Positions 37,120 to 54,334 of a stretch of DNA of 64,000 nt are shown here, one piece after another. Source of the DNA: Opitutales bacterium (GTDB taxonomy: Bacteria; Verrucomicrobiota; Verrucomicrobiia; Opitutales; JABSRG01). The notes under the pieces are model-generated. The model saw nothing but the letters and a program-made list of their open reading frames with translations. It ran no database searches and was not told the DNA's origin. The position numbers were made by a program, and so were the translations under genes. The stretch is taken from positions 1-64,000 of the forward strand of contig JANQKZ010000019.1 in the NCBI GenBank assembly GCA_028280845.1, in the 5' to 3' direction. The stretch's first letter is position 1, and the number at the start of each line of letters is the position of its first letter.

Positions 37120-38613
37120 ATGAGTTCGAAACTCCTTTTCTGCCTGCTTTGGCTCCCGCTAAGCCTTTCTCTGGGTTGGGGCGAGCAACCCATGAATGTC
37201 CTCTTCATCATGACGGACGACCTGAACTGTGACCTTGGCGCATATGGACACTCCCTTGTGCAAAGTCCCCATATTGACCAGTTGGCCAAAGAGGGGGTTC
37301 TGTTTGAAAATGCCTACACAAATTTTCCCGTCTGCGGGCAATCGAGGAACAGCTTCCTGAGTGGCCTCTATCCCGACCAGAATGGAGTCACCCGGTTGCG
37401 CCGCCTCTTACGAGACTATGTCCCGGACGTCGTCACGCTTCCCCAACACTTCATGGCCTCGGGCTACACTGCTGCCCGCGTGGGCAAAATGTACCACTAC
37501 GATAACCCCAGGGGCATAGGAACCAACAGCCACGATGACCCGGCCTCCTGGAACACACGCATCAACCCGATTGGCCGTGACAAGACAGAGGAAGACATCA
37601 TCTTCTCCTTGGTTCCCGGATCATTTGGGGCGACCCTCAGCTGGCTGGCAGCAGAGGGCACGGATGAAGAGCAGACCGACGGTATCGTCGCAACGGAATC
37701 CATCAAGCTCCTGGAACAGTATGCCAAGGAAGGCACCCCGTTCTTTCTCGGTGTCGGGTTCTACAAACCCCACACTCCCTTCGTTGCCCCTAAACAGTAT
37801 TTCGACCTCTACAACCCGGAGGACATCGAGGTGCCCCGCGTCCCTGAAGATTACCTCTCCACGCTACCCGCCCCAACCGCCAGACAACTAAGACATTGGA
37901 AACCTCAGAACGACCTCCCCGAGGAAACCGCCAGGCAAGCCATCCACGCCTACTATGCCACGATTTCGTTTCTCGACGCGCAAATTGGTCGTGTTCTTCA
38001 GGCGGTGGAAGACTTGGGGCTTTCGGACAACACCATCATCCTCTTCAGTTCCGATCACGGATACCACATGGGAGAGCATGGGTATTACCAGAAAACCACA
38101 CCCTTTGAGGCCGCGGACCGGGTCCCGCTGATCATAGCCACCCCCGACATGCCCACAGGGGGTAGCCGCACCGATGCCCTCATCGAGATGATCGACTTTT
38201 ATAAAACCCTTTCCGAGTTGGCTGGCCTCCCGGCCCCTCCCTCTTACGTCCAAGGTAAGAGTCTTGTGCCGATATTAAAAAACCCGGACAAAGACCATCG
38301 TACTTCTGCCATTACCCAGGTATCTGGCGGCTACACGATTCGCACCCCGCGTTACCGATACACCAAATATCCCAAGACCGAAGGCCTGAACCAGGAACTC
38401 TATGACCGACTGAGCGATCCTGCGGAAATGGTTAACCTGGCCAGGGATGCAAACTATACCGACATCCTGAAAAGAATGGATACCATCTGGGAAACCCGGG
38501 TCGCAGAAGTGCAGCAACGCCCGGTGGGGCTTCGATTCATCCCCCCAGAACCGAAGGACCATGGTTATAGCCTTGATGAAATGCTGACGAAAGATCCAGT
38601 GAAGACAGACTGA
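37120..38613 (+). CDS. Exported sulfatase (iduronate-2-sulfatase-like)
   Basis: A 497-residue arylsulfatase-superfamily enzyme with a signal peptide (MSSKLLFCLLWLPLSLSLGWG). Metal ligands appear in NVLFIMTDDLN (Asp33-Asp34). The formylglycine site is FPVCGQSRNSFLSGLYPDQ (Cys72 and Arg76): the usual C-x-P-S-R reads C-G-Q-S-R. FSSDHGYHMGEHGYYQK near 300 supplies the second metal side and catalytic His. Hydrolyses a sulfate ester on a polysaccharide outside the inner membrane. Needs a formylglycine-generating enzyme, not in this window. Stands alone on the plus strand. Confidence 0.88.
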   Translation: MSSKLLFCLLWLPLSLSLGWGEQPMNVLFIMTDDLNCDLGAYGHSLVQSPHIDQLAKEGVLFENAYTNFPVCGQSRNSFLSGLYPDQNGVTRLRRLLRDYVPDVVTLPQHFMASGYTAARVGKMYHYDNPRGIGTNSHDDPASWNTRINPIGRDKTEEDIIFSLVPGSFGATLSWLAAEGTDEEQTDGIVATESIKLLEQYAKEGTPFFLGVGFYKPHTPFVAPKQYFDLYNPEDIEVPRVPEDYLSTLPAPTARQLRHWKPQNDLPEETARQAIHAYYATISFLDAQIGRVLQAVEDLGLSDNTIILFSSDHGYHMGEHGYYQKTTPFEAADRVPLIIATPDMPTGGSRTDALIEMIDFYKTLSELAGLPAPPSYVQGKSLVPILKNPDKDHRTSAITQVSGGYTIRTPRYRYTKYPKTEGLNQELYDRLSDPAEMVNLARDANYTDILKRMDTIWETRVAEVQQRPVGLRFIPPEPKDHGYSLDEMLTKDPVKTD

Positions 38614-39252: not shown

Positions 39253-39558
39253 CTAGGGAAACTCCTGTTTTATCCGAACGATACGGAATCCTTGTTTGTG
39301 GGGAATCAAGGTGTCCCACCATTCCTCCTCCTGGTACAGATAGCGGATCTGCAGGCCGCGGATGGAACGATTCATTAAGCAATGATAGGCATCGGAGAGG
39401 CTGATTTCGGTGAGCTTCACCGCACCGGACCCTACCTTCGGGATTACAGCCAACACCTCCGCACAGGATTTCAAATCGGTGAAGAGGGCCCTCAGGGCGG
39501 TCGCATCCAGCACGGATTGCTGCAACTCAGGCGAGGTCGGAGAGAAAGATTCATTCAT
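39253..39558 (-). CDS. Unknown protein of the nap operon
   Basis: A 101-residue soluble protein with no signal peptide or metal motif (ALRALFTDLKSCAEVLAVIPKV, AVKLTEISLSDAYHCLMNRSIRG, LQIRYLYQEEEWWDTLIP). I recognise no family. It starts 18 bp after the ferredoxin gene and shares the operon, so it may be a maturation or assembly factor for nitrate reductase. Confidence 0.7.
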   Translation of the reverse strand: MNESFSPTSPELQQSVLDATALRALFTDLKSCAEVLAVIPKVGSGAVKLTEISLSDAYHCLMNRSIRGLQIRYLYQEEEWWDTLIPHKQGFRIVRIKQEFP

Positions 39559-39575: not shown

Positions 39576-39896
39576 CTATTTGGCTGGGACCATGAGGATG
39601 GCGTTAACCGGAGATGGGCAACAATCATGGCATTCCCCACAACCTGTACAATGGTCAGTCACGACCCGGGGAAGGCCACGCTCGGAGAGAAGGGCTCCCG
39701 GCACGGGGCATCGCTCCACGCAAACCGAACAGAATGAATTCTGGTAAGCCAGGCAGTGCCGCCCCTGGATCACAGCTACATGCGATTCACTTGCAGCAGC
39801 CGGGACCTCCATGGAATTCCGATCTTCAGCCTCCCACCCCATCCGAAGAAATCGGCTGAAGAATTCACGACGTGATACTGGACGAGGAGTACTCAT
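39576..39896 (-). CDS. napF: NapF-like ferredoxin, two [4Fe-4S] motifs
   Basis: A 106-residue protein with two cluster motifs: FCSVCVERCPVPGA at about 56-69 and HCTGCGECHDCCPSPVNA at about 82-99. A basic R-R-x-F-F sequence (SRREFFSRFLRMG) at the N-terminus is also seen in NapF, which interacts with NapA during maturation. No long signal follows, so it is cytosolic or a NapF-type maturation protein. Four bases separate it from the cytochrome gene upstream; part of the napDA operon. Confidence 0.82.
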   Translation of the reverse strand: MSTPRPVSRREFFSRFLRMGWEAEDRNSMEVPAAASESHVAVIQGRHCLAYQNSFCSVCVERCPVPGALLSERGLPRVVTDHCTGCGECHDCCPSPVNAILMVPAK

Positions 39897-39899
39897 GAA

Positions 39900-40697
39900 C
39901 TATTTGATCAATTCAGGCCTGAAAGGGAATGGGGATTCCCCGAAAAAACTCTTCTCAACCCCAGTTCCAGGCACGTGGCATTGCATGCAGCTCTTACGCT
40001 CCGGGTGAGTCGTCCTGATCGGGCTAGTCCCCAATGGACCATGACAGCTATTACAGTTTTGCCGCATGTGGACAACATGGGGGATGGTGGGGGGGGAATC
40101 GTCGTAAGCCCGTTCTCCTGGCATGAGTTCATGGTGACCCGTAAATCGATTCTGTCCAAATGGAGAAAGCCTGTAAGTCCCTGTATTCCATTCCGTCCCC
40201 AGGCCTTCGGAGGAAACATGGCATTGGGTACAGCTCTGATAGACAGGATGAGAGATTCCCGGTGACACCACGGTATCAATCCGGGTAGCCTCCTCATGGC
40301 ATCCCAGGCAAGTTACCGAATAGCTTTGCGAAATGGGATGAGGAACGACAGGAGGCGCCCCATTAAAAGCCCGTCTGGCTCTCCGCTCAGCAATCACCTC
40401 AGGCCTCTCCTGCACAGTCTCACTCTGCGGAGGAATCAGGCTGGACATTTCACTGCGAAAGGAAGCATTCGGTCCGAAACCGGCCGAAGCCAATTGACTA
40501 TAACTGACTGCAACCGGGGCGGCCCCCGACTCCTGCCTCGCTTCACCGGTTTCAAGCGGCAGACCGGACAATTCGCCACTTAGCCGGGTTTCCCGAACAG
40601 TTTGGCGAAGCCCCATGAAAAACCCGCTCAACGATACCACGAATACAACCGACACCGTCAGAGTAGCGGCCTTCTTGGAGTGATAGAAATCGATCAT
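39900..40697 (-). CDS. napB: NapB-like cytochrome c with four haem motifs
   Basis: A 265-residue protein with an N-terminal membrane segment (residues 11-29), a linker of about 80 residues and then four CxxCH motifs at Cys130, Cys156, Cys215 and Cys237. Ordinary NapB has two. The region reads as two similar modules: PPVVPHPISQSYSVTCLGCH...SHPVYQSCTQCHV and PPTIPHVVHMRQNCNSCHG...THPERKSCMQCHV. This indicates tandem duplication of the NapB dihaem core, or a fusion of NapB with a related unit. It would pass electrons to NapA. Located just after napA, as napB usually is. Confidence 0.85.
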   Translation of the reverse strand: MIDFYHSKKAATLTVSVVFVVSLSGFFMGLRQTVRETRLSGELSGLPLETGEARQESGAAPVAVSYSQLASAGFGPNASFRSEMSSLIPPQSETVQERPEVIAERRARRAFNGAPPVVPHPISQSYSVTCLGCHEEATRIDTVVSPGISHPVYQSCTQCHVSSEGLGTEWNTGTYRLSPFGQNRFTGHHELMPGERAYDDSPPTIPHVVHMRQNCNSCHGPLGTSPIRTTHPERKSCMQCHVPGTGVEKSFFGESPFPFRPELIK

Positions 40698-40709: not shown

Positions 40710-43145
40710 TTAGCTCCTTGGCTGCTCTTCGAGGACCGGTTTCTGGACGGGCTTTTTATATACCACGGCGGCACACTTCTTATAGTCGGGCTCTTTGGAA
40801 ATAGGATCAACATCTCCAAGGGTCAGCTCGTTGATCAACAGGTGTTCATCGAAGAAGGGAACAAAGATGCTGCCTCGGGGGGGATGCCCCCGGCCATTTA
40901 ACCAAACAGGAAGCTCAATTTTCCCTCGCCGCGTTTCGACTACGGCGATGTCGCCATTGGCCAAGCCCTGATCTCTCGCATCGTCGGGGTGGAGTTCAAC
41001 ATAGGCGTGGGGCATGGCATTATGTAATTGGGGAATGCGGCGGGTCATCGTTCCCGTGTGCCAATGCTCCAGAACCCGACCTGTACAAAGCCACATGGGA
41101 TAGGAATCATCTGGTTCCTCCGTCGCCGGCTCGTAAGGGCAGAACCAGATCAGGCCTCGATCGTCTTGCGTCACAGAATGGTAAAACTGAATTTCCTTCC
41201 CGGGCTCGACATAAGGATCACTGAATTCCATAAAACGGAAGGGGGTTTCCCTCCAAGTACCGTTGGCATCCTGAACCACCGGCCACCTTAACCCACGGGA
41301 TTCGACCAACACATCATAAGGAGCCAGGTCTTTGTGTTTCATGAACGAAAAGGCCCGGTATTCTTCGTACAATGTTTTGTCTACGTTTATATCGTAGTAG
41401 TGCTCCCACTCCCAAATAGGAACAGTGTTTCCGGCGTCATCCTTCACATCAAACAGGAATTCGCCGTCCTTGTCCTTCATTCCGGAGTAACCCATCTCAA
41501 ATAGTTTCCTCGCCACCGCGATGGTCATCCACGTGTCATCCCGGGCATTCCCGGGCGGGTCTACCATCTTGAACCACTGTTGAGTCCTTCGTTCCGAGTT
41601 TCCGTAGATCCCATTTTTCTCCACCCACATGGCGGCGGGCAACACCAGGTCAGCCATTGCTGTCGTCGCGGTGGGGTAGACCTCGGATACAATGAGGAAC
41701 TTGTCCTTTAATCCGCGATGGTTTTGAAAATACTTTTTGAGATAGGGCAGGGTCTGGCCAGGGTTAGTGACTTGTACCCAAATTGTGCTGATATCTCCTC
41801 CTGACTCGGTAGGAGTGCAGAACTGTTCCCACATCTTTATGGTATGATACCCCGGTTTGGGGTTGATCCGACCATCGGGTAAGTTCCAAATTCGTTCGGA
41901 ATCGTTTCGATGTGCTTCCTTCGCCACCAAACGCCCCCCCGGCAGCGTATGGGCTAAGGTTCCGACTTCCCGAGCCGTTCCACAAGCCGAGGGTTGTCCC
42001 GTCAAGCTGGTGGGCGCATCGCCGGGCTTCCCCCAATGGCCACTCAGCATATGGATACCATGAATCAGCCGATTCATATTGGTCCCCCGGGTGTGCTGAT
42101 TCACCCCCATGCACCACAGGCTGGTGATGCGTAAATCGCGATTGCCAAACAACTCCGCCAGGTAACGGATTTTTCCGGCAGGAACCCCGGATAGCTGCTC
42201 CACATACTCCGGAGTATAAGGGGCCAGCAGTTCGGTGTACTCTTCCAGGCTACTCACCTCTCCAAACAAGGACGGGGTGTCCGTGTCCTTTCTGAAGTTA
42301 CAGAAGCGCTCCACAAACCGTTGATCGTAGGTTCCGTTTTTTAGCAGGAGATGCGCGATCCCGTTTGCGATTGCCAGGTCCGTTTGAGGACGAAACTCCA
42401 AATACTCGTCGCAATATTCGGTTGTCCGCGTGCGCCGGGTTCCCATGTCGATCAGGGTAATTTCTTCCCCCTTCGACCGACGATCAATGACTCTTGAAAA
42501 CAGGACCGGATGCATTTCGGCCGGATTGTTTCCCCACATGATGAGCACATCACACTCATCCAGGTCCGTGTAGCAACCGGCAGGTTCATCCACCCCCTGG
42601 GTGGACAGAAATCCGGTCACTGCTGATGCCATGCAGAGGCGCGCATTTGGATCGATGTGGTTGTTTGACAATCCTCCCTTGATTAACTTCTGCGCACTAT
42701 AGCCCTCAGGAATCGTCCACTGCCCACTCCCATATATGGCGAATTGTTCGGGCCGGTCATAAAGGCGTTGGGCAATCGCCTCGAGGGCTTCATCCCAAGA
42801 CACTTTCTCCAGTTTCCCATTCTTGCGCAGCATGGGCTCCTTGAGGCGATCCTCTCCGTATAGAATTCCGCCCACATGATAGCCTTTCACGCAGAGGAGC
42901 CCCTGGTTCACCTCAGCTAATTGCTCGCCCTGGATGGCCACCACCTTGTTGTCCTTTACCCCCACCCGAACATGACAGCCCGTCCCACAAAACCGACAGG
43001 GGGCTTTATCCCAGGTGAGACCATCCGCCGCTTCCGCTGTACTCAGCTCGGTATTGTCAAAAGCACCATAGGCGCGTTGATGCGCTGCAGTTACCGCAGC
43101 AGCCATCGCAGTGGATTTCAAAAATTGGCGACGATCGACATTCAT
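40710..43145 (-). CDS. napA: Periplasmic nitrate reductase, catalytic subunit NapA
   Basis: An 811-residue molybdopterin oxidoreductase with a Tat signal (MNVDRRQFLKSTAMAAAVTA). The [4Fe-4S] Cys are 50, 53, 57 and 85 (CRFCGTGCHVRV, LLCVKGYH). The Mo ligand Cys is 171 (NARLCMASAVTGF). QGVDEPAGCYTDLDECD, MWGNNPAEMHPVL, SLWCMGVNQHTRGTNMNRLIHG and HWHTGTMTRRIPQL further on are NapA hallmarks. Reduces nitrate to nitrite in the periplasm with electrons from NapB. Start is the ATG at 43143-43145; a longer frame covers napD. Confidence 0.95.
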   Translation of the reverse strand: MNVDRRQFLKSTAMAAAVTAAHQRAYGAFDNTELSTAEAADGLTWDKAPCRFCGTGCHVRVGVKDNKVVAIQGEQLAEVNQGLLCVKGYHVGGILYGEDRLKEPMLRKNGKLEKVSWDEALEAIAQRLYDRPEQFAIYGSGQWTIPEGYSAQKLIKGGLSNNHIDPNARLCMASAVTGFLSTQGVDEPAGCYTDLDECDVLIMWGNNPAEMHPVLFSRVIDRRSKGEEITLIDMGTRRTRTTEYCDEYLEFRPQTDLAIANGIAHLLLKNGTYDQRFVERFCNFRKDTDTPSLFGEVSSLEEYTELLAPYTPEYVEQLSGVPAGKIRYLAELFGNRDLRITSLWCMGVNQHTRGTNMNRLIHGIHMLSGHWGKPGDAPTSLTGQPSACGTAREVGTLAHTLPGGRLVAKEAHRNDSERIWNLPDGRINPKPGYHTIKMWEQFCTPTESGGDISTIWVQVTNPGQTLPYLKKYFQNHRGLKDKFLIVSEVYPTATTAMADLVLPAAMWVEKNGIYGNSERRTQQWFKMVDPPGNARDDTWMTIAVARKLFEMGYSGMKDKDGEFLFDVKDDAGNTVPIWEWEHYYDINVDKTLYEEYRAFSFMKHKDLAPYDVLVESRGLRWPVVQDANGTWRETPFRFMEFSDPYVEPGKEIQFYHSVTQDDRGLIWFCPYEPATEEPDDSYPMWLCTGRVLEHWHTGTMTRRIPQLHNAMPHAYVELHPDDARDQGLANGDIAVVETRRGKIELPVWLNGRGHPPRGSIFVPFFDEHLLINELTLGDVDPISKEPDYKKCAAVVYKKPVQKPVLEEQPRS

Positions 43146-43146
43146 T

Positions 43147-43416
43147 TTAAACAGCTTCGTAGGAGGATTCAGGGGATACGGAACAAAAGGTAACATCCAC
43201 CTGTACAACGGTGGGCAGCGATTCTAACCACTCATGGAGGGGCCGTGCATCTGCGTCCTCGATGGTCAGGGGTAAATACCGGCCTACCGGCTCCCCTACC
43301 GTCACCCCCTCCATCTTTTCTAAAACCGCTCGAAACGCAGCTGTGACGCACTCCTCATCCGTAACCGTGACCAACAGACTGCTCAGGGGTGTCCTCCATG
43401 CACGCTTCGCTTTCAT
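43147..43416 (-). CDS. napD: NapD chaperone for NapA
   Basis: An 89-residue, ferredoxin-fold small protein. SSLLVTVTDEECVTAAFRAVLEKMEGVTVG and the second half PLTIEDADARPLHEWLESLPTVVQVDVTF match NapD, which binds the Tat signal of NapA and prevents early export. It ends one base before the napA start, so the two are coupled. First gene of the nap operon. Confidence 0.85.
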   Translation of the reverse strand: MKAKRAWRTPLSSLLVTVTDEECVTAAFRAVLEKMEGVTVGEPVGRYLPLTIEDADARPLHEWLESLPTVVQVDVTFCSVSPESSYEAV

Positions 43417-43512
43417 GTTGGCTCAATGTAGCTTTATTTATCCCCATATACAAGAATTAAATACCTTTTATTCTTGTATTAAAAGCGCAAGGTTCCTTAC
43501 TATCGTCGAAAG
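43417..43512. promoter_or_regulatory. Divergent nap/quinol-dehydrogenase promoter with inverted repeat
   Basis: A 96-base gap separates napD from the tetrahaem operon. ATACAAGAATTAAA (43448-43461) and TTTTATTCTTGTAT (43466-43479) form an inverted repeat of 14 bases with one mismatch and a four-base centre. This size and layout suits a homodimeric Rrf2-type repressor, which is encoded at 46344-46778. The sequence is centred between both starts and could control both operons. Confidence 0.6.
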
Positions 43513-44145
43513 ATGAAGAGCACGACGGTTACCAGCTTTGCCGCCCTCGTCTTGGGAATGGGAATCTCCGGGATAGGGATCTGGGTTTACTGGCAATCTT
43601 TTGCCACCTTTGATGAGCCCATCGCAATGGACATAAAGCAGGCTGATATGGGGGCAGAACCGTATGGGGTAAGCATCCACGGAACCCCGACGACACCCAC
43701 CGTGTATACGGATATCCTGACCCCCAATGGAACCCTGGCGGAAGTGGCCTGTGTGACGTGCCACACCACTCGGGAAGGTCGTTTGGAAAACCGGGGAACT
43801 GAGGATCTGGAACTATTTCACCAGGGCCTTCAGGTCCAACACGGGGGATTGAGCTGCTTGAGCTGCCATAATTCTGAGAATTTTGACACACTCCGTCTTG
43901 CCGATGGGTCTCCTATTCCTTTCCCGCAAACGATGCAACTCTGCGCTCAATGCCATGGTCCGCAGTACAGGGACTACCAACACGGATCTCACGGCGGCAT
44001 GATGGGGTACTGGGACCTGAACCGTGGTCCCCGGCAACGAAACAGCTGCACGGTGTGCCACGACGCGCATTCGCCTGCCTATCCAAGATTAACCCCGGTG
44101 TTTCCACCTCATGTGGCAGTATCCGGAAACTCGCCTCACCATTAA
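43513..44145 (+). CDS. Membrane-anchored tetrahaem cytochrome c
   Basis: A 210-residue protein with an N-terminal signal anchor (residues 7-29) and four CxxCH motifs (Cys80, 115, 144 and 179: CVTCH, CLSCH, CAQCH, CTVCH). His-rich spacers (QHGGLSCLSCH, YQHGSHGGMM) can supply distal haem ligands. It is not a NapC/NrfH close relative (no matching haem spacing). It resembles the cytochrome subunits that sit with ferredoxin-like and NrfD-like subunits in quinol-oxidising complexes. First gene of the plus-strand operon. Inferred to deliver electrons towards NapB. Confidence 0.82.
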   Translation: MKSTTVTSFAALVLGMGISGIGIWVYWQSFATFDEPIAMDIKQADMGAEPYGVSIHGTPTTPTVYTDILTPNGTLAEVACVTCHTTREGRLENRGTEDLELFHQGLQVQHGGLSCLSCHNSENFDTLRLADGSPIPFPQTMQLCAQCHGPQYRDYQHGSHGGMMGYWDLNRGPRQRNSCTVCHDAHSPAYPRLTPVFPPHVAVSGNSPHH

Positions 44146-44157
44146 CTTGGCCATTCC

Positions 44158-45081
44158 ATGAACAAGGAAAATCAGGAGTCAGGCTCTATTTCAAGGCGCA
44201 CCCTTATAAAGGGAACCGGAGCAATGCTCGGAGCCGCTGCCTTCGCCAAGGCCATGGCCCCGCTCACCGAATGGGCAAGTCATCAGTCGATGGATGAATT
44301 CCTTCAGCAACACTACCGGGAGCTGGACGAAGAGGAGATGCAAAAGGTCCTGCGTCGTCTGGAAGAAGAGACCCGACGCGACTATGGGGTCGAGGTTACC
44401 ATAACCGATCACAAACCCGAAAAGGGGGTCAAATTTGGCTATGCATTGAACCTCAGCATTTGCGTTGGCTGCCGGAAATGCGCTCAGGCCTGTCATCGCG
44501 AAAATAATCATGACCGGGCTTCAGGCAACTCTTACATACAGGTCCTGGAAATGAAGAAGGGATCGCTCGATTTGGAAAACGGGACAGTGAATTATTCCGG
44601 ACCCGTCCCCAAAAAAGATGCCTTCTACATGCCGGTGCAATGCCAACAGTGTGATGCCCCTCCCTGTGTAGACGTATGCCCGGTCGAAGCCACCTGGAAG
44701 GAGCCCGATGGGATCGTAGCTGTAGACTACAATTGGTGCATCGGATGCCGCTACTGTGAGGCCGCATGTCCTTACCACGCCCGTCGGTTCAATTGGGCTA
44801 AACCTCAAATTCCGGCGGAGGACATTAACCCGGCCCAAAGTTATCTAAGTAACCGCCTCCGTCCTCAGGGAGTCATGGAAAAGTGCACCTATTGCCTGCA
44901 TCGGACTCGAGAAGGGCGCCTCCCGGCCTGCCTGGAAGCCTGCCCCACCGGAGCCCGTGTGTTTGGCAATGTGTTGGATCCAAAATCAGAAATCCGCTGG
45001 GTACTGGAAAACAAACGTGTCTTTGTCCTGAAAGAGGAACTTGGAACCAAGCCCAGCTTTTTCTATTTTTTCGATGAATAA
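44158..45081 (+). CDS. Tat-exported four-cluster Fe-S protein (NrfC/DsrO/HybA-like)
   Basis: A 307-residue protein with a Tat signal (SRRTLIKGTGAMLGAAAFAK). Its four [4Fe-4S] cysteine motifs are ICVGCRKCAQACH at about 101-113, CQQCDAPPCVDVCP near 162-175, NWCIGCRYCEAACP near 194-207 and KCTYCLHRTREGRLPACLEACP near 241-262. This four-cluster form pairs with NrfD/HybB membrane subunits to move electrons from quinol. It lies between the tetrahaem cytochrome and the NrfD gene, and its stop overlaps the NrfD start by 8 bp. Confidence 0.9.
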   Translation: MNKENQESGSISRRTLIKGTGAMLGAAAFAKAMAPLTEWASHQSMDEFLQQHYRELDEEEMQKVLRRLEEETRRDYGVEVTITDHKPEKGVKFGYALNLSICVGCRKCAQACHRENNHDRASGNSYIQVLEMKKGSLDLENGTVNYSGPVPKKDAFYMPVQCQQCDAPPCVDVCPVEATWKEPDGIVAVDYNWCIGCRYCEAACPYHARRFNWAKPQIPAEDINPAQSYLSNRLRPQGVMEKCTYCLHRTREGRLPACLEACPTGARVFGNVLDPKSEIRWVLENKRVFVLKEELGTKPSFFYFFDE

Positions 45082-46351
45082 GGATTCCGTAGCTACCGCC
45101 CCTCGTCATATGGGGGGAAGTCACCTCTCCAACTATCCTCGCTTCCTCTGGCGTATGCTGGTCATGGCAACCGAGGGGAACTGGCTGTTTTACGCGTGGA
45201 TGATTGTTCTGACAGCTGTGGCCTTAGTGGGTGCCAATGCCTGGGCGGTTCAAGTGACCCAGGGTATGGGGGTCACCCATATGACGGACCACGTATCCTG
45301 GGGCCTTTATATAGCTAACTTCACCTTCATGGTGGGGCTGGCCGCCGGCGGGGTCATGATGGTGATTCCAGCCTACCTCTATCATGACAAAGACATGCAT
45401 GACATTGTCATCATAGGTGAGCTCCTGGCCATTGCCGCGATCATCATGTGTATTGCCTTTGTCGTAGTGGATCTGGGGCGACCGGATCGTTTCTGGCACC
45501 TGATCCCCGGGATAGGAAAGTTCAATTTTCCCATCTCCATGCTGACCTGGGATGTCATCGTACTGAATGGTTACTTACTCCTTAACCTGCATATCTGTGG
45601 CTACCTGCTCTACCACCGCTACCTGGGAAAGCAGCCGCACCCCCGTTGGTATGTACCCTTTGTTTTCATCTCGATTGCCTGGGCTATATCCATTCACACG
45701 GTAACCGCTTTTCTCTACCAGGGGCTCGGCGGAAGGCCCTTCTGGAATACTGCCCTGCTCGCTCCTCGCTTTCTTACATCCGCCTTTGTTTCCGGACCTG
45801 CATTTATCATCCTCGCCCTGGAAGCAATCCGGTATCTGAGTAAATACAAAGTGGGGGACGGCGCGATCCGCATCCTGGTCAACATCATGCGGATCACCAT
45901 TCTGATCAACCTCCTCATGCTTATCTCTGAGATTTTCACCGAGTTTTATACCGGCGGATCTCATACCGCTTCTGCCAAATACCTCTACTTCGGATTACAT
46001 GGCTACAATGCCTTGGTGCCTTGGATTTGGACCTCGATTGCCCTGTCTCTGTCCGCCACGATTGTCCTTCTCAGTCCAAAAGTTACCGAGCATCCCCAGT
46101 TACTCATAACTGCATGTATCCTCGCCTTTGCCGCAATCTGGATTGAAAAGGGTATGGGACTGATCATCCCCGGGTTTATCCCCTCCACCCTTCATGAAAT
46201 GGTGGAATATCTTCCGAACAGCCTGGAGTGGAGAGTCACTGCGGGAATCTGGGCCATGGGATTGATGATTTATACCCTAGCGATTCGCATCGCGATGCCT
46301 ATCTTTTCCGGGGAAGTCTCCTTGGAAAAAGATCAACACCCCCATGTATAG
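45074..46351 (+). CDS. NrfD/PsrC/HybB-like quinol-binding membrane subunit
   Basis: A 425-residue membrane protein with about ten helices. Typical features are GVTHMTDHVSWGLYIANFTFMVGLAAGG near 68-95, IAFVVVDLGRPDRFWHLIPG (G-R-P/LG-R region) near 132-151, and HTVTAFLYQGLGGRPFWNTALLAPRFL near 208-234. These are the HybB/DsrP/NrfD quinol-site elements. Start at 45074 (MNKDSV) overlaps the Fe-S gene. Forms the membrane part of a quinol dehydrogenase with the Fe-S and cytochrome proteins. Confidence 0.9.
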   Translation: MNKDSVATAPRHMGGSHLSNYPRFLWRMLVMATEGNWLFYAWMIVLTAVALVGANAWAVQVTQGMGVTHMTDHVSWGLYIANFTFMVGLAAGGVMMVIPAYLYHDKDMHDIVIIGELLAIAAIIMCIAFVVVDLGRPDRFWHLIPGIGKFNFPISMLTWDVIVLNGYLLLNLHICGYLLYHRYLGKQPHPRWYVPFVFISIAWAISIHTVTAFLYQGLGGRPFWNTALLAPRFLTSAFVSGPAFIILALEAIRYLSKYKVGDGAIRILVNIMRITILINLLMLISEIFTEFYTGGSHTASAKYLYFGLHGYNALVPWIWTSIALSLSATIVLLSPKVTEHPQLLITACILAFAAIWIEKGMGLIIPGFIPSTLHEMVEYLPNSLEWRVTAGIWAMGLMIYTLAIRIAMPIFSGEVSLEKDQHPHV

Positions 46352-46778
46352 GTACGGAAAAACAGCCCAGAATGCAGTCTCTGCCATGAGCTATCTCGCC
46401 GAAGTCTTTGACGGCGGAGAGACCAAACTCAGCTCGCATGACATCGCTCTTCACCGAAAATTATCTCAACCTCTCGTGGCCAAAATGCTAGTCGTCCTTT
46501 CCCAGTCCGGGCTGGTCGATGGCAGCCGTGGTCCTGGCGGCGGCTACTGGTTGGCCAAAGATCCCGCCTTAATCACCCTCCAGGAAATTGTTTCCCAATT
46601 CGAAAAGGCGGATACACGGACCTTCTGTCCTTTTGGCCCAAACTGGTGCGGCAACGAAGACCCCTGCCCCCTCCATGATCAGCTGCTGGCTCTGGATGAC
46701 CAACTCACCCGGTTCCTCAGTGAAACAAGTCTGGGTGTTTTTGCAAAAAGCAGCGGTAGCCCCCCTCTTTCCACTTAA
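46344..46778 (+). CDS. Rrf2-family transcription regulator
   Basis: A 144-residue Rrf2 protein. N-terminal winged helix: GKTAQNAVSAMSYLAEVF, then the recognition region LSQPLVAKMLVVLSQSGLVDGSRGPGGGYWLAKDP. The cysteines FCPFGPNWCGNEDPCPLHD near 94-112 have the three-Cys spacing that binds an Fe-S cluster in IscR and NsrR. It probably senses NO, iron-sulfur or redox status. Overlaps the NrfD gene by 8 bp. The inverted repeat at 43448-43479 is a candidate site for it. Confidence 0.85.
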   Translation: MYRYGKTAQNAVSAMSYLAEVFDGGETKLSSHDIALHRKLSQPLVAKMLVVLSQSGLVDGSRGPGGGYWLAKDPALITLQEIVSQFEKADTRTFCPFGPNWCGNEDPCPLHDQLLALDDQLTRFLSETSLGVFAKSSGSPPLST

Positions 46779-46788
46779 ACCCATACAG

Positions 46789-48003
46789 ATGAAAACCCCA
46801 TCTATTCTCATCGCCCTCCTAATGGCTGGAGCATCTCCACTGCTATCCCAAAATAATGCAGTAGAATCTGCTCTCGATACTGAAATCGGTAAACTGCAGA
46901 GTTCCCTTCCCGGACAGGTTAACATCAATAACCGGCTCCGATACGAACGCTTTGACTTGGACAATGGTTCCCCCAACCGCTCCGGGTTTTCTAACAGGAT
47001 CCGGTATGGCTATACGCAACCCTTTGGAACAAACTTTTCCGCCATGGTCGAGGGAGAGACCCTCTTCGCTATCGGAAGCCAGGATGAGATTCACCCTGCT
47101 GATGAAAGGGCGATTGGGACTGAGCTGAACCAGTTATGGCTGGGATATTCCCATGAAGACTGGGGAAAGGGAAAACTGGGCCGCCAGATCTATACGCTCG
47201 ATGACCACCGTTTCATTGGCCATGTGGGTTGGAGGCAGAACATTCAGACTTACGACTCCATTACCGGATCCTTCACGAGGGTCCCCAACCTGGTTCTCAA
47301 TGCATTTTACATCGATCAGGTTCTGACCCCCGCAGGAGGAACGAACGATCTTCAAGCCTTCGGCGTAAACGCAAGTTATAAGTTTGGGACGCACCTCACG
47401 GCCACAGCCTTCCTCTACGACATGGAAGGTCAGGACAACCGGGCTCAGTCGAATCGCTCCTTCGGCGTCCGTGCACACGGGTCTCACCAATTCGAAAATG
47501 TTCAATTCAAATACACTGCCAGTTTTGTTTCCCAATCAAACAACAATCAAAACCTGGTATCCTACGATGCCAATTACTGGGCAGGAGATCTCACTTTCTC
47601 CTTCACGGGATTCGATATCGGAGCAGGGTTAGAGATCTTGGAACCGGGATTCAGAACCCCACTAGCTACCCTCCATAAATTCAATGGCTTTGCCGACGTG
47701 TTTGTCGCTTCGTCGGGAACTGGAATTCCCCATGGGTTAATGGATTTCTACCTTTCCGCTGGCACGAAAATCCCCCTGGGCACGGAACGAGTCATCCCCT
47801 TCAAAGTCATTTTTCATCAATTCGAACCTGAATCCGGATCCGGGGATTACGGGGACGAAGTCGATCTGGTCGTCACCTATTCCATTAGCAAACACTTGGG
47901 AGGCACCCTGAAGTATGGAATGTACAATAGCCGGGGCGGTTCGGCAGGCGTTGGAGGCGCCGACAAAACCATGCTGGCGGCCGATCTTGTCTTCAGCTTC
48001 TAG
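46789..48003 (+). CDS. Outer-membrane porin (alginate-export/Nap-associated type)
   Basis: A 404-residue protein with a signal peptide (MKTPSILIALLMAGASPLLSQ). From about residue 40 onward it shows alternating strands: NINNRLRYERFDLDN, NRIRYGYTQPFGTNFSAMVEG, NQLWLGYSHEDWGKGKLGRQI, FGVNASYKFGTHLTATAFLYD and VVTYSISKHLGGTLKYGMYNSR, ending with the aromatic LVFSF of beta-barrels. Similar to AlgE/OprD-like porins. Last in the operon; possibly provides nitrate passage through the outer membrane. Start ATG at 46789; a longer frame overlaps the regulator. Confidence 0.82.
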   Translation: MKTPSILIALLMAGASPLLSQNNAVESALDTEIGKLQSSLPGQVNINNRLRYERFDLDNGSPNRSGFSNRIRYGYTQPFGTNFSAMVEGETLFAIGSQDEIHPADERAIGTELNQLWLGYSHEDWGKGKLGRQIYTLDDHRFIGHVGWRQNIQTYDSITGSFTRVPNLVLNAFYIDQVLTPAGGTNDLQAFGVNASYKFGTHLTATAFLYDMEGQDNRAQSNRSFGVRAHGSHQFENVQFKYTASFVSQSNNNQNLVSYDANYWAGDLTFSFTGFDIGAGLEILEPGFRTPLATLHKFNGFADVFVASSGTGIPHGLMDFYLSAGTKIPLGTERVIPFKVIFHQFEPESGSGDYGDEVDLVVTYSISKHLGGTLKYGMYNSRGGSAGVGGADKTMLAADLVFSF

Positions 48004-48082: not shown

Positions 48083-48700
48083 CTACGTTGTGGTCTTACT
48101 ACTGCACCGGCTCTTAATCCCATCCAGATCTTCCGGGGTATTCACATTCTGGAAATGACATTCACACGCTTTGGGAACCGCGATCACGTCTATCAGGCCT
48201 AGCCCCACACAAGACATAACCCAACCGCGGACTTTGCCATCCCCCTGCTCAAGACGAAACTTCGCCACCGCTAACGCCTCTCTTGGATAGTGGGCCACAA
48301 AGGGTTGGACCCATCCACCGATTTGTGGGACCCACCCCCGTCCCGGCTCTTCCAGGTCTGAAAACTGTTGGAAAGAAGCCTCCGTCAGAAGCGGAAAATC
48401 AATTCCATGGACATGGAAGGATGTTGCTTCAGTACCCGCGAGCAACCCGGCAAATCCGGCAAGCGGTCCGGCGTCAGCATGGCCATCGTCATCCTTTACC
48501 CAGGCAAAATCTTGAGGAAGCCAAAACGGCTTCCGAGGGGATACCACAATGCGCTCAGTAAATCCAAAACTCCTCAGGAGCTCGGTTTGAATTTCCCAAA
48601 AGGTCGCGCCCTGATAAGTGAGCATAGCCTTATCGCTGCCCATACGACTCGATCGGCCACCTGCAAAAAGGACTCCGGCTCCGTCTCGGGCCTCAGACAT
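48083..48700 (-). CDS. mobA: Molybdenum cofactor guanylyltransferase MobA
   Basis: A 205-residue nucleotidyltransferase. The glycine-rich GTP loop is GVLFAGGRSSRMGSDKAML (L-x-G-G-x-S-x-R-M-G-x-D-K) at about 9-27; DFPLLTEASF near 104-113 is the Mg-binding D-x-P. Ends with FQNVNTPEDLD, also typical of MobA. Makes the bis-MGD cofactor that NapA needs. The start at 48700 overlaps the end of the MOSC gene. The proximity to nap matches its role. Confidence 0.88.
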   Translation of the reverse strand: MSEARDGAGVLFAGGRSSRMGSDKAMLTYQGATFWEIQTELLRSFGFTERIVVSPRKPFWLPQDFAWVKDDDGHADAGPLAGFAGLLAGTEATSFHVHGIDFPLLTEASFQQFSDLEEPGRGWVPQIGGWVQPFVAHYPREALAVAKFRLEQGDGKVRGWVMSCVGLGLIDVIAVPKACECHFQNVNTPEDLDGIKSRCSSKTTT

Positions 48701-49169
48701 GAAACATTCCTGGTTGGAGAGTCCCATCTCTCAAAATCTTGGCCCTTAACCCGCCTTGGCCTTTAAGGAAATCATTCGCACCATCTCGGAAAGCCTGATC
48801 CATCCAAAAACAGGGCCGACACTCCTCGGTCCCCAGAAAACGAACCCCCTGGATGGTAAATTCTTTGCCAATCAAAGCATCCAGGTCCACTCCACGGGTC
48901 AATACGTTCCGACGAACCTGGGAAGGCGGTTTCTCCTCAGCTGTTATGCCCAGGTGACCCAGCAAGGCCTCATACACCTCCATACGGAAAAACGTGATCT
49001 GCCCTTTATAATCGGGTTCATGATCAAAATACCGATCTCCTTCAATGCCTCGACCTGCCACGCAGTCAATGGTGCTCATAGTCACCATCGGGCTGTTCCC
49101 GGGAGGCCCCCCATAGAATCCCTTATACTGGTGATTCGGTGTGATGAACAGATACTCGATGAAGGCCAT
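48693..49169 (-). CDS. MOSC-domain protein
   Basis: A 158-residue MOSC (MOCO sulfurase C-terminal) protein. GIEGDRYFDHEPDYKGQITFF near 40-60, VRRNVLTRGVDLDALIGKEF near 86-105 and TEECRPCFWMDQAFRDG near 114-130 with its conserved Cys are the MOSC signature. MOSC proteins bind sulfur or the cofactor and can act in molybdenum-cofactor metabolism or detoxification. Ends with an 8-bp overlap with mobA; these two form a small minus-strand operon beside the nitrate respiration genes. Confidence 0.85.
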   Translation of the reverse strand: MAFIEYLFITPNHQYKGFYGGPPGNSPMVTMSTIDCVAGRGIEGDRYFDHEPDYKGQITFFRMEVYEALLGHLGITAEEKPPSQVRRNVLTRGVDLDALIGKEFTIQGVRFLGTEECRPCFWMDQAFRDGANDFLKGQGGLRAKILRDGTLQPGMFHV

Positions 49170-52780: not shown

Positions 52781-54220
52781 TTATTCAGCGATAGGTATCC
52801 GGCCGTCCATCCCCATTTTCTGCTTCCAGGCCTCAATCCTATCCATAAAACCCGGGACCAGGTGGGCATAGTCCTCTATCCGGTCATGCTTTGCCGCATA
52901 ATCGGTGGTCACATCATAGAGTGCTTTTTCTCCAGTGGTGGCGGAGTACATGAAATGCCAGCGCCGGGTACGCACGTAGTATTTTTCGGCGATGGCTCCC
53001 ATCACATGATCTTCCGATCGCTGGTTGTCCGTGTAGCCTATCAGGTGAGTCCGCTCCTCGATGGACTCTCCGGAGAAGAGGGGCAACAGCGACTTCCCGG
53101 GCAGCTCTTCAGGAATGTCGATCCCGACGAGATCCAAGATCGTGGGAACGAGGTCCAGGCTGGATACCAAGCTGGACTGATTCATGGTGCCATGGGTCTT
53201 CCCCTTCCAATAGAAGATCATCGGCGTCCGGTAGGAACTATCGTAGTTGCCGCCTTTGCCCTGGAATCCACCGGTTGCATATTCCGAATCATTGTAAACG
53301 GTAACCCCAGGATACCAGTATTCCACATCGGCATCCTGTTCCCAGCCATTGTCACTCAGGTAAATGAACAGGGTATTTTCAAGCAACCCGCGCGCTTCCA
53401 TATAATCCATCAGCTTGCTTACCCCATCGTCCCACCAGGTGATGTTGCTGTAATACTGTTTGGCAGATTCCGAAAGGTTCTGGTACTCGTAATATTTCCT
53501 GAGGGTGTAGGGGGCATCGTAAGGCGTGTGAGGTAACATCGGCCCATACCAGATAAACATGGGTTGGTCTTGCTTCCGGTCGATAAAATCAAATAGCGGC
53601 TCCATTGTGGTGCGCCCCAACTCCGTCCCATCGGATCCCATCATTTCATGGAAGAAGTCATCCGTTCCAAATTTAGACATATCCCAACCGGGAGTCATGC
53701 CCTCGTCGAAATGCCCGTTGGCATAGCCGCTTTCCCACCATTTTCCTCCCTGCCAGCTCACATATCCCTTCCTCCTGAGCCACTTGGGTAGTGTATCAAA
53801 CTCCTTCATGCCGTTTGCGATCTCAACAGATTCCCACATGCGCTGCTCCACCTCAGTCATTTGCTCAAGTTCCGGTGTCGCCTGTTTGCGGTTTTCCAAA
53901 TGTAAACGGTTACGTTGAACATAGGTAACCGGGTGCAAACCGGTAATCATCGCTCGCAACGATGGACGACAATACGGCGTGGTGACGTGGGCTTCCGTAA
54001 AGACCAGCCCACCGGCAGCCAGGGTATCCATGGCCGGAGTCACCACATGCTCATCTCCCATGAAGCCGAAGTAGGGAAAACCATGATCATCTCCGATCAG
54101 AAGCACGATATGAGGAAGGCGCTCTGCTCGTAGTGGAAGCAGCGCAAGGATGAAAAGGAGCGAGGCGGACCATCGACATTTCCGGTAGGTGGTCACACAA
54201 AGAGGGAAGAGGGATTTCAT
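52781..54220 (-). CDS. Exported sulfatase with CxPSL motif
   Basis: A 479-residue sulfatase. Start at 54218-54220 gives a signal peptide around SASLLFILALLPLRAE; an ATG eight codons upstream is also possible. Metal ligands occur in IVLLIGDDHG. The formylglycine site reads TTPYCRPSLRAMITGLHP: Cys84-Arg-Pro-Ser-Leu-Arg, so the Arg that follows CxPS is displaced by one. This CRPSL form is common in planctomycetal sulfatases. PHTPYDAPYTLRKYY and YLSDNGWEQDADV provide the remaining active-site side. Genomic pairing with an amylase points to a sulfated glucan, which is an inference. Confidence 0.85.
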   Translation of the reverse strand: MKSLFPLCVTTYRKCRWSASLLFILALLPLRAERLPHIVLLIGDDHGFPYFGFMGDEHVVTPAMDTLAAGGLVFTEAHVTTPYCRPSLRAMITGLHPVTYVQRNRLHLENRKQATPELEQMTEVEQRMWESVEIANGMKEFDTLPKWLRRKGYVSWQGGKWWESGYANGHFDEGMTPGWDMSKFGTDDFFHEMMGSDGTELGRTTMEPLFDFIDRKQDQPMFIWYGPMLPHTPYDAPYTLRKYYEYQNLSESAKQYYSNITWWDDGVSKLMDYMEARGLLENTLFIYLSDNGWEQDADVEYWYPGVTVYNDSEYATGGFQGKGGNYDSSYRTPMIFYWKGKTHGTMNQSSLVSSLDLVPTILDLVGIDIPEELPGKSLLPLFSGESIEERTHLIGYTDNQRSEDHVMGAIAEKYYVRTRRWHFMYSATTGEKALYDVTTDYAAKHDRIEDYAHLVPGFMDRIEAWKQKMGMDGRIPIAE

Positions 54221-54334
54221 GGGGATGGGGTTTGAATCATCCAACCTGCAAAACCATACGGGTCAAACTCAGGCGTGCGGTGTCGAAGAAATCTAATAGG
54301 GTTATAGGTTTTGTCCTGAAGCACGCTTCTGGGA

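Follow-up and report, generated by a model that had tools for sequence, protein, structure and literature searches.

A cytochrome/Fe-S/NrfD-type gene module as the probable quinol dehydrogenase of periplasmic nitrate reductase in an Opitutales bacterium and its relatives

Gene content of the locus

The window analysed here, the whole stretch of 64,000 nucleotides at the start of contig JANQKZ010000019.1 of an Opitutales bacterium (Verrucomicrobiota; assembly GCA_028280845.1), carries genes for a periplasmic nitrate reductase (Nap) on the minus strand and, diverging from napD-napA-napB-napF, a three-gene module on the plus strand (43513–46351) that probably encodes a membrane quinol dehydrogenase for this reductase in place of NapC or NapGH (we put the probability at about 0.8). 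The first module gene (43513–44145) encodes a membrane-anchored tetrahaem cytochrome c of 210 aa with CXXCH motifs at residues 80, 115, 144 and 179 and a single, N-terminal hydrophobic segment. The second (44158–45081; 307 aa, PF13247) encodes a Tat-exported Fe-S subunit of the DsrO/NrfC type, with the Tat motif SRRTLIKG and 16 Cys in four CxxCxxCxxxC-like groups (four [4Fe-4S] motifs), and the third (45074–46351, ATG at 45074; 425 aa, PF03916) a DsrP-like integral membrane subunit of the NrfD superfamily. These coordinates, the tetrahaem cytochrome/four-cluster Fe-S/NrfD-like anatomy and the divergence from napDA are as given in the original prediction, which had been made from the letters of this stretch. 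A gene for an Rrf2-family regulator (46344–46778, plus strand; PF02082, 81 bits; clustered Cys CX6CX5C) is the last of the operon. The Fe-S and NrfD genes overlap by 8 bp at their ends, as do the NrfD and Rrf2 genes, so that the four genes likely form a co-translated operon.

On the minus strand, a NapD-like chaperone (43147–43416) occupies the position before napA; it has no Pfam match of its own, and its orthologue in a related locus (L033) scored 22.8 bits with NapD, below the cut-off of 28. NapA, the catalytic molybdenum subunit (40710–43145), starts at an ATG, the TTG at 43208 falling within napD. Its scores missed both NCBIfam equivalog cut-offs (TIGR01706, 832 bits against 930.55; PRK13532, 868 against 904), but NapA is still by far the best family for this protein, and the Mo-ligand motif RLCMAS is kept, as it is in 60 of 65 full-length relatives. 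It is the only NapA in the genome, and each of 21 module-bearing genomes checked likewise encodes exactly one.

NapB usually carries two haems. The NapB of the window (39900–40697; PF03892, 33.8 bits against a cut-off of 25.1) has four haem motifs, as predicted originally, and so do 59 of 61 relatives. Both of its halves match the same stretch of PF03892 (profile positions 39–84 and 40–72), each in the order PPxxPH ... CxxCH ... HP ... CxxCH; judged by these repeats, the protein is an internal tandem duplication of a dihaem unit.

Identity of the module subunits

The membrane subunit scored 429.3 bits with the NCBIfam DsrP model NF045798 (cut-off 350), 28.2 bits with NrfD TIGR03148 (far below the cut-off of 347.6) and 52 bits with QrcD (cut-off 570), while Pfam PF03916 (129 bits against a gathering score of 25.8) places it in the NrfD superfamily. 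By its profile scores it is DsrP-like and not NrfD proper; the earlier label 'NrfD-like' holds at the level of the superfamily, but for the membrane subunit DsrP is a closer family than NrfD, and for the Fe-S subunit DsrO a closer one than NrfC. Ten long helices are seen in the AlphaFold model (pTM 0.80), whose top match in the PDB is ActC of alternative complex III (ACIII; TM 0.72–0.75). For DsrP1, Calisto and Pereira (PMC8076601, Table 2) gave a quinone site of Tyr52, Asp106, Ser124 and Asp129 and half-channels ending at Lys329; the equivalents of the quinone-site residues and Lys329, matched by offset, are Y79, D133, S155, D160 and K359, all invariant in 87 sequences. The same applies to E116, Y101, Y167, H208 and T211, while E286, H297 and R232 are nearly invariant.

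Profile scores of the Fe-S subunit were 186 bits for DsrO (cut-off 200), 160 for QrcC (400) and 125 for NrfC TIGR03149 (377.6), which makes it nearest to DsrO on this measure, yet just under the DsrO cut-off. Fifteen of its 16 Cys are invariant in 78 sequences; the exception is C105 in the first cluster, replaced by Asn in 24 of the 78, which suggests a [3Fe-4S] or otherwise altered first cluster in those proteins. In the cytochrome, the four haem motifs and four further His (H103, H110, H160 and H186) are kept in all 68 aligned sequences, a pattern fitting four bis-His haems. The cytochrome gave c7/c3-type Pfam matches and a weak NrfB-like match, and no match to the DsrJ family in the profile search. 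In two other genomes, the gene at the position of the module cytochrome (G390:C1:2725396-2725581 and G400:C77:99763-99924) weakly matched the NapC/NrfH family (24.1 and 20.8 bits); a remote kinship of the module cytochrome with that family is possible.

Linkage of the module to nap

For linkage, Verrucomicrobiota and Planctomycetota were sampled by napA, irrespective of NrfD. Among 387 Verrucomicrobiota genomes, napA occurred in 7 and a DsrP-type NrfD in 18; the NrfD gene lay within 6 kb of napA in all 7 napA-positive genomes, and this NrfD type was found in 11 of the 380 without napA (p=1.3e-10). Gene order varied, with nap and module divergent in three of these genomes (the source genome, G000, and G277 and G378) and a co-directional napA-napB-cytochrome-Fe-S-NrfD arrangement in the other four (G127, G194, G289 and G320); that linkage is kept despite this change we count in favour of the proposed role. 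Among 392 Planctomycetota genomes napA was present in 54, and 52 napA loci not previously known to bear the module were counted: 29 carried the module, 13 a Rieske/cytochrome b/octahaem set, none both, and 10 neither, several of these ten being cut by a contig end or having a canonical-type NapA. The mutual exclusion of module and Rieske/cytochrome b set, both confirmed with Pfam, gave p=1.8e-6. Kinship among the genomes is ignored in both p-values, making them too small; the pattern spans many genera, and the association of the module with nap is far beyond chance.

In L178–L183, L185–L187, L190 and L192–L194 (for example L187:5607-11701), the Rieske/cytochrome b/octahaem set immediately precedes napA and a napB with four haems. 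This set and the NrfD module look like interchangeable quinol-oxidising modules. The replacement of one by a non-homologous other at a single position is the strongest evidence that the two have a function in common, oxidising quinol for NapAB. The second Planctomycetota NapA clade, which has the Rieske/cytochrome b set and 45–52% identity to the NapA of the window, also refuted the notion that the module always accompanies Nap.

The 80 nearest relatives of the NrfD gene were set aside as proof of the link, the query having been built mostly from nap-linked sequences, and were used for breadth only. They come from Verrucomicrobiota, Planctomycetota, Myxococcota, Acidobacteriota and Sumerlaeota; napA lies within 6.6 kb of NrfD in 72 of the 80, and most of the others have a contig end beside the module. 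The nearest named relatives are Pelagicoccus and other Opitutales. In the NrfD tree, a bulk nap-linked clade is accompanied by separate nap-linked lineages (L035–L037 and L038) amid nap-free ones; nap linkage does not appear there as a single clean clade, and long branches limit the tree.

An octahaem cytochrome adjoins the module in several loci, with nap in L038 (11671-13155) and L206–L208, the protein of L206–L208 being homologous to that of the bc-type Nap clusters, and without nap in L043 (9235-10674) and L135 (708-2438). In Rubritalea profundi (L098), napA is spread over four ORFs and napB over two, and the cytochrome ORF is down to one haem motif, so that nap and the cytochrome are apparently frameshifted or decaying together.

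Other quinol dehydrogenases in the genome

None of napC, napG and napH is visible in the window, as the original prediction stated. Across the whole genome (4.79 Mb in 62 contigs, 97.7% complete), no match to NapH TIGR02163 was found at E<=0.001, and the best match to NapC TIGR02161 reached 21 bits against a cut-off of 310, at nrfH; NapG was not separately searched. This gene (C17:67010) is the genome's only match to the NapC/NirT/NrfH family, and since its NapC score is far below the cut-off and nrfA follows immediately downstream, it is assigned as NrfH and not NapC. The genome check proposed with the original prediction thus turned up only nrfHA and left the claim unrefuted, and a distant NapC or NapH filling the gap was ruled out (both statements with the same reservation for NapG). 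The nrfH-nrfA pair, on a contig other than that of nap (G000 C17; L002:7008-8896), makes up a nitrate-to-ammonium pathway together with Nap.

The same picture was obtained beyond the source genome. NapH above cut-off was found in 0 of 7 and 0 of 16 module-bearing genomes in two sets. NapC and above-cut-off NapH were both absent from the source genome and from a further 22 entries for genomes with the module, two of which were counted twice. Matches to the NNT family in module-bearing genomes were nearly all NrfH beside NrfA, and NapC/NrfH-family matches stood beside nrfA in 10 of the 16 genomes from the nearest-relative set. Six distinct module-bearing genomes from both sets (Haloferula rosea, Haloferula sp. 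BvORR071, Verrucomicrobium sp. BvORR106, a Myxococcaceae MAG (metagenome-assembled genome), G289 and G320) had no NapC/NrfH-family match at all. The only other NrfD-family gene of the source genome belongs to an ACIII operon on contig C55.

Proposed electron path and alternatives

The proposal that the module serves as the quinol dehydrogenase of Nap, made originally from this stretch, draws support from the gene content, the domain and cofactor motifs, the napA-first linkage across phyla (7/7 and 29/52), the exclusion of the Rieske/cytochrome b set and the genomes free of NapC/NrfH and, for NapC and NapH, the absence from the source genome. The invariant equivalents of the DsrP1 quinone-site residues and the palindrome between the two transcription units also speak for it. 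In the path envisaged, menaquinol would be oxidised by the DsrP-like NrfD subunit close to the periplasmic side. The exported Fe-S subunit, with its four [4Fe-4S] clusters, would relay the electrons to the anchored tetrahaem cytochrome, from which they would reach the duplicated tetrahaem NapB and then NapA. NapA would reduce nitrate to nitrite, and NrfHA, encoded elsewhere in the genome, would then convert nitrite to ammonium. Quinol specificity, the direction of electron flow, a physical complex and joint control by Rrf2 are what we infer.

Several points weigh against this assignment. The evidence is all genomic, and the DsrP1 residues were matched from published positions without an alignment of the DsrP1 sequence. 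Among Planctomycetota, one locus with a NapA of the same clade and roomy flanks on both sides (L170) lacks the module, and another (L184) has neither the module nor the bc set. ACIII and NrfH are also encoded in the genome, and either is conceivable as an electron donor to NapB. The module also has close homologues that occur without nap, some of them beside an octahaem cytochrome (L043 and L135), and the module is therefore, as far as gene neighbourhoods tell, not exclusively a partner of Nap.

This last point bears on the alternative that fares best, in which the module works as a general hub between menaquinol and the periplasm and supplies nitrite or hydroxylamine reduction as well, through octahaem cytochromes or NrfA, Nap being one client among others. 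The loci with an octahaem cytochrome beside the module, either without nap (L043, L135) or with it (L038, L206–L208), speak for it, as does family knowledge of Escherichia coli NrfBCD, which fills such a role for NrfA (PMC8076601). In the source genome, however, NrfA has its own NrfH on another contig, and nap is the sole acceptor system beside the module. We consider a hub somewhat improbable here; it would in any case be compatible with quinol oxidation for Nap, as an extension of that role.

It is less probable, and in our view unlikely, that Nap receives its electrons from ACIII or NrfH, the neighbouring module then giving them a redundant or conditional way in. The genome does encode both systems (ACIII on C55, nrfHA on C17), and in Campylobacter jejuni Nap is driven by the general menaquinol:cytochrome c complex Qcr without a dedicated dehydrogenase (PMC6195509). 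However, ACIII and nrfH are distant from napA whereas the module adjoins it in 7/7 napA-positive Verrucomicrobiota, NrfH is absent from the six module-bearing genomes named above, and redundancy leaves it unexplained why the module and the Rieske/cytochrome b set exclude each other. A reversed module, that is a Qrc-like quinone reductase fed by periplasmic cytochromes, has its precedent in QrcABCD, which reduces menaquinone via a related Fe-S/NrfD pair (PMC8076601, PMC6303296), but is very improbable given that its neighbour is a high-potential nitrate reductase and not a hydrogenase/c3 system, that NrfHA in the genome is consistent with nitrate ammonification, and that the QrcC and QrcD scores (160/400 and 52/570 bits) show no Qrc-type signature.

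Relation to known systems

As a quinol dehydrogenase, the module would share with NapC and NapGH the transfer of electrons from menaquinol to NapB and NapA, although its proteins belong to other families and the genome lacks genes for NapC and NapH (NapG was not separately searched). The original prediction that the path differs from the known NapC and NapGH routes stands as regards the families; the known routes, however, also include cytochrome bc complexes (PMC6195509, PMC5317091). A 2026 review (PMC13223375) recognises four known types of nap operon and names NapB, NapC, NapG and NapH as the redox partners; further routes have been shown or proposed with Qcr in Campylobacter (PMC6195509) and, in the nap cluster of Caldithrix, with a Rieske/cytochrome b set (PMC5317091). 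The Rieske/cytochrome b clusters of Caldithrix abyssi and of Planctomycetota L178–L194 resemble the module in that a quinol-oxidising set adjoining napA replaces NapC, but they are of the bc type and non-homologous, and none of the 52 loci combined such a set with the NrfD module.

Among complexes of the NrfD superfamily, the closest counterpart is DsrJOP of the DsrMKJOP complex of sulphate reducers. The module resembles it in a DsrP score above cut-off, an Fe-S subunit nearest to DsrO, ten helices, the residues published for the quinone site and the channels (gate lysine included), and a periplasmic c-type cytochrome partner; unlike DsrJOP, it has a tetrahaem cytochrome and not a trihaem DsrJ, is linked to nap and has an Fe-S subunit just under the DsrO cut-off. 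No DsrMK genes are found beside the module operon, so that with the DsrO score and the cytochrome type it falls outside the definition of DsrMKJOP. NrfBCD of E. coli formate-dependent nitrite reduction likewise combines a multihaem cytochrome, an exported four-cluster Fe-S protein and NrfD, and feeds a periplasmic N-oxyanion reductase, the job proposed for the module. It differs in that NrfD has 8 helices (PMC8076601) and the module subunit 10, in that the module scores below the NrfC and NrfD cut-offs, and in that the partner of the module is NapAB, not NrfA, and its cytochrome has four haems, not five.

In 2023, an NrfD cluster adjoining Nap was drawn for the Planctomycetota MAGs OFTM8 and OFTM33 (PMC10732223), and respiratory electron transfer or a novel nitrite reductase was suggested there for such clusters. 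The genes are homologous to those described here, the same genomes being our L073 and L086 (napA-napB with cytochrome-Fe-S-NrfD), but that paper proposed no Nap quinol dehydrogenase and made no survey. The NrfD survey of PMC8076601 lists no Nap partner, and a four-gene NrfD locus near napMADGH was described in NapGH-containing sulphur bacteria (PMC5276818). We found no paper assigning the module to Nap, in a search that left subscription literature mostly outside, so that an earlier description is possible. As far as the literature searched shows, the parts were known and the arrangement had been glimpsed before, and the assignment, its breadth and the exchange of modules are new.

Genomes of Planctomycetota, Verrucomicrobiota and Myxococcota often have napA without napC or napGH, and nitrate respiration then looks incomplete in annotation. 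The module would fill this gap and could be used to flag genomes with the potential for nitrate ammonification. The part of Nap that oxidises quinol would have been swapped among the non-homologous NapC, NapGH, Rieske/cytochrome b and NrfD-type complexes. NapC is regarded as non-energy-conserving. Nap respiration through the module may conceivably conserve energy where quinol is oxidised, with the DsrP-like subunit translocating protons while feeding Nap; this rather doubtful reading draws on the two half-channels and central lysine proposed for DsrP1 (PMC8076601), whose residues are invariant or nearly so in the 87 sequences. If the NrfD-type subunit does pump protons, the energy yield of Nap respiration in these groups will need revision, a question accessible in the cultured Haloferula rosea, Persicirhabdus sediminis, Pelagicoccus mobilis and Roseiconus nitratireducens.

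Shared promoter region and neighbouring genes

About 96 bp separate napD from the cytochrome gene; this gap contains ATACAAGAATTAAATACCTTTTATTCTTGTAT, and the divergent promoter region common to nap and module holds a 32-bp inverted repeat, ATACAAGAAT-N12-ATTCTTGTAT (43448–43479). An exact dyad of the CAAGA-N16-TCTTG type was present at 10 of the 58 divergent loci scanned, whereas shuffles gave 0.11. An Rrf2 gene directly follows NrfD in 15 of these 58 loci, and the dyad occurred in 7 of the 15 against 3 of the 43 without such a gene (p=0.0016). The palindrome is likely an Rrf2 operator, and the simplest reading is that a single Rrf2 regulator would control both nap and the module. Scans for sigma-70 promoters and terminators gave fewer sites than in shuffles, and their results were not used.

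Downstream of napB on the minus strand lie a gene for a NapF-like ferredoxin with a Tat-like N-terminus (39576–39896; weak NapF, NapG and RnfB matches) and one for a conserved, nap-linked protein of 101 aa without a family match (39253–39558). Homologues of the latter, with the conserved end RY...W.DTLM...G.R.VRI, occur at 46 of 80 related nap loci, making it a candidate new Nap accessory protein. On the other side, the Rrf2 gene is followed by a gene for an alginate-export-type porin (about 46790–48003), similar porins being found near nap at 11 of 80 loci; a role as nitrate pore is possible. Beyond the module, MobA-like and MOSC genes (48083–49169) fit a molybdoenzyme locus, and sulphatase-like genes, of a type common in Verrucomicrobiota, are found at 37120–38613 and 52781–54244.

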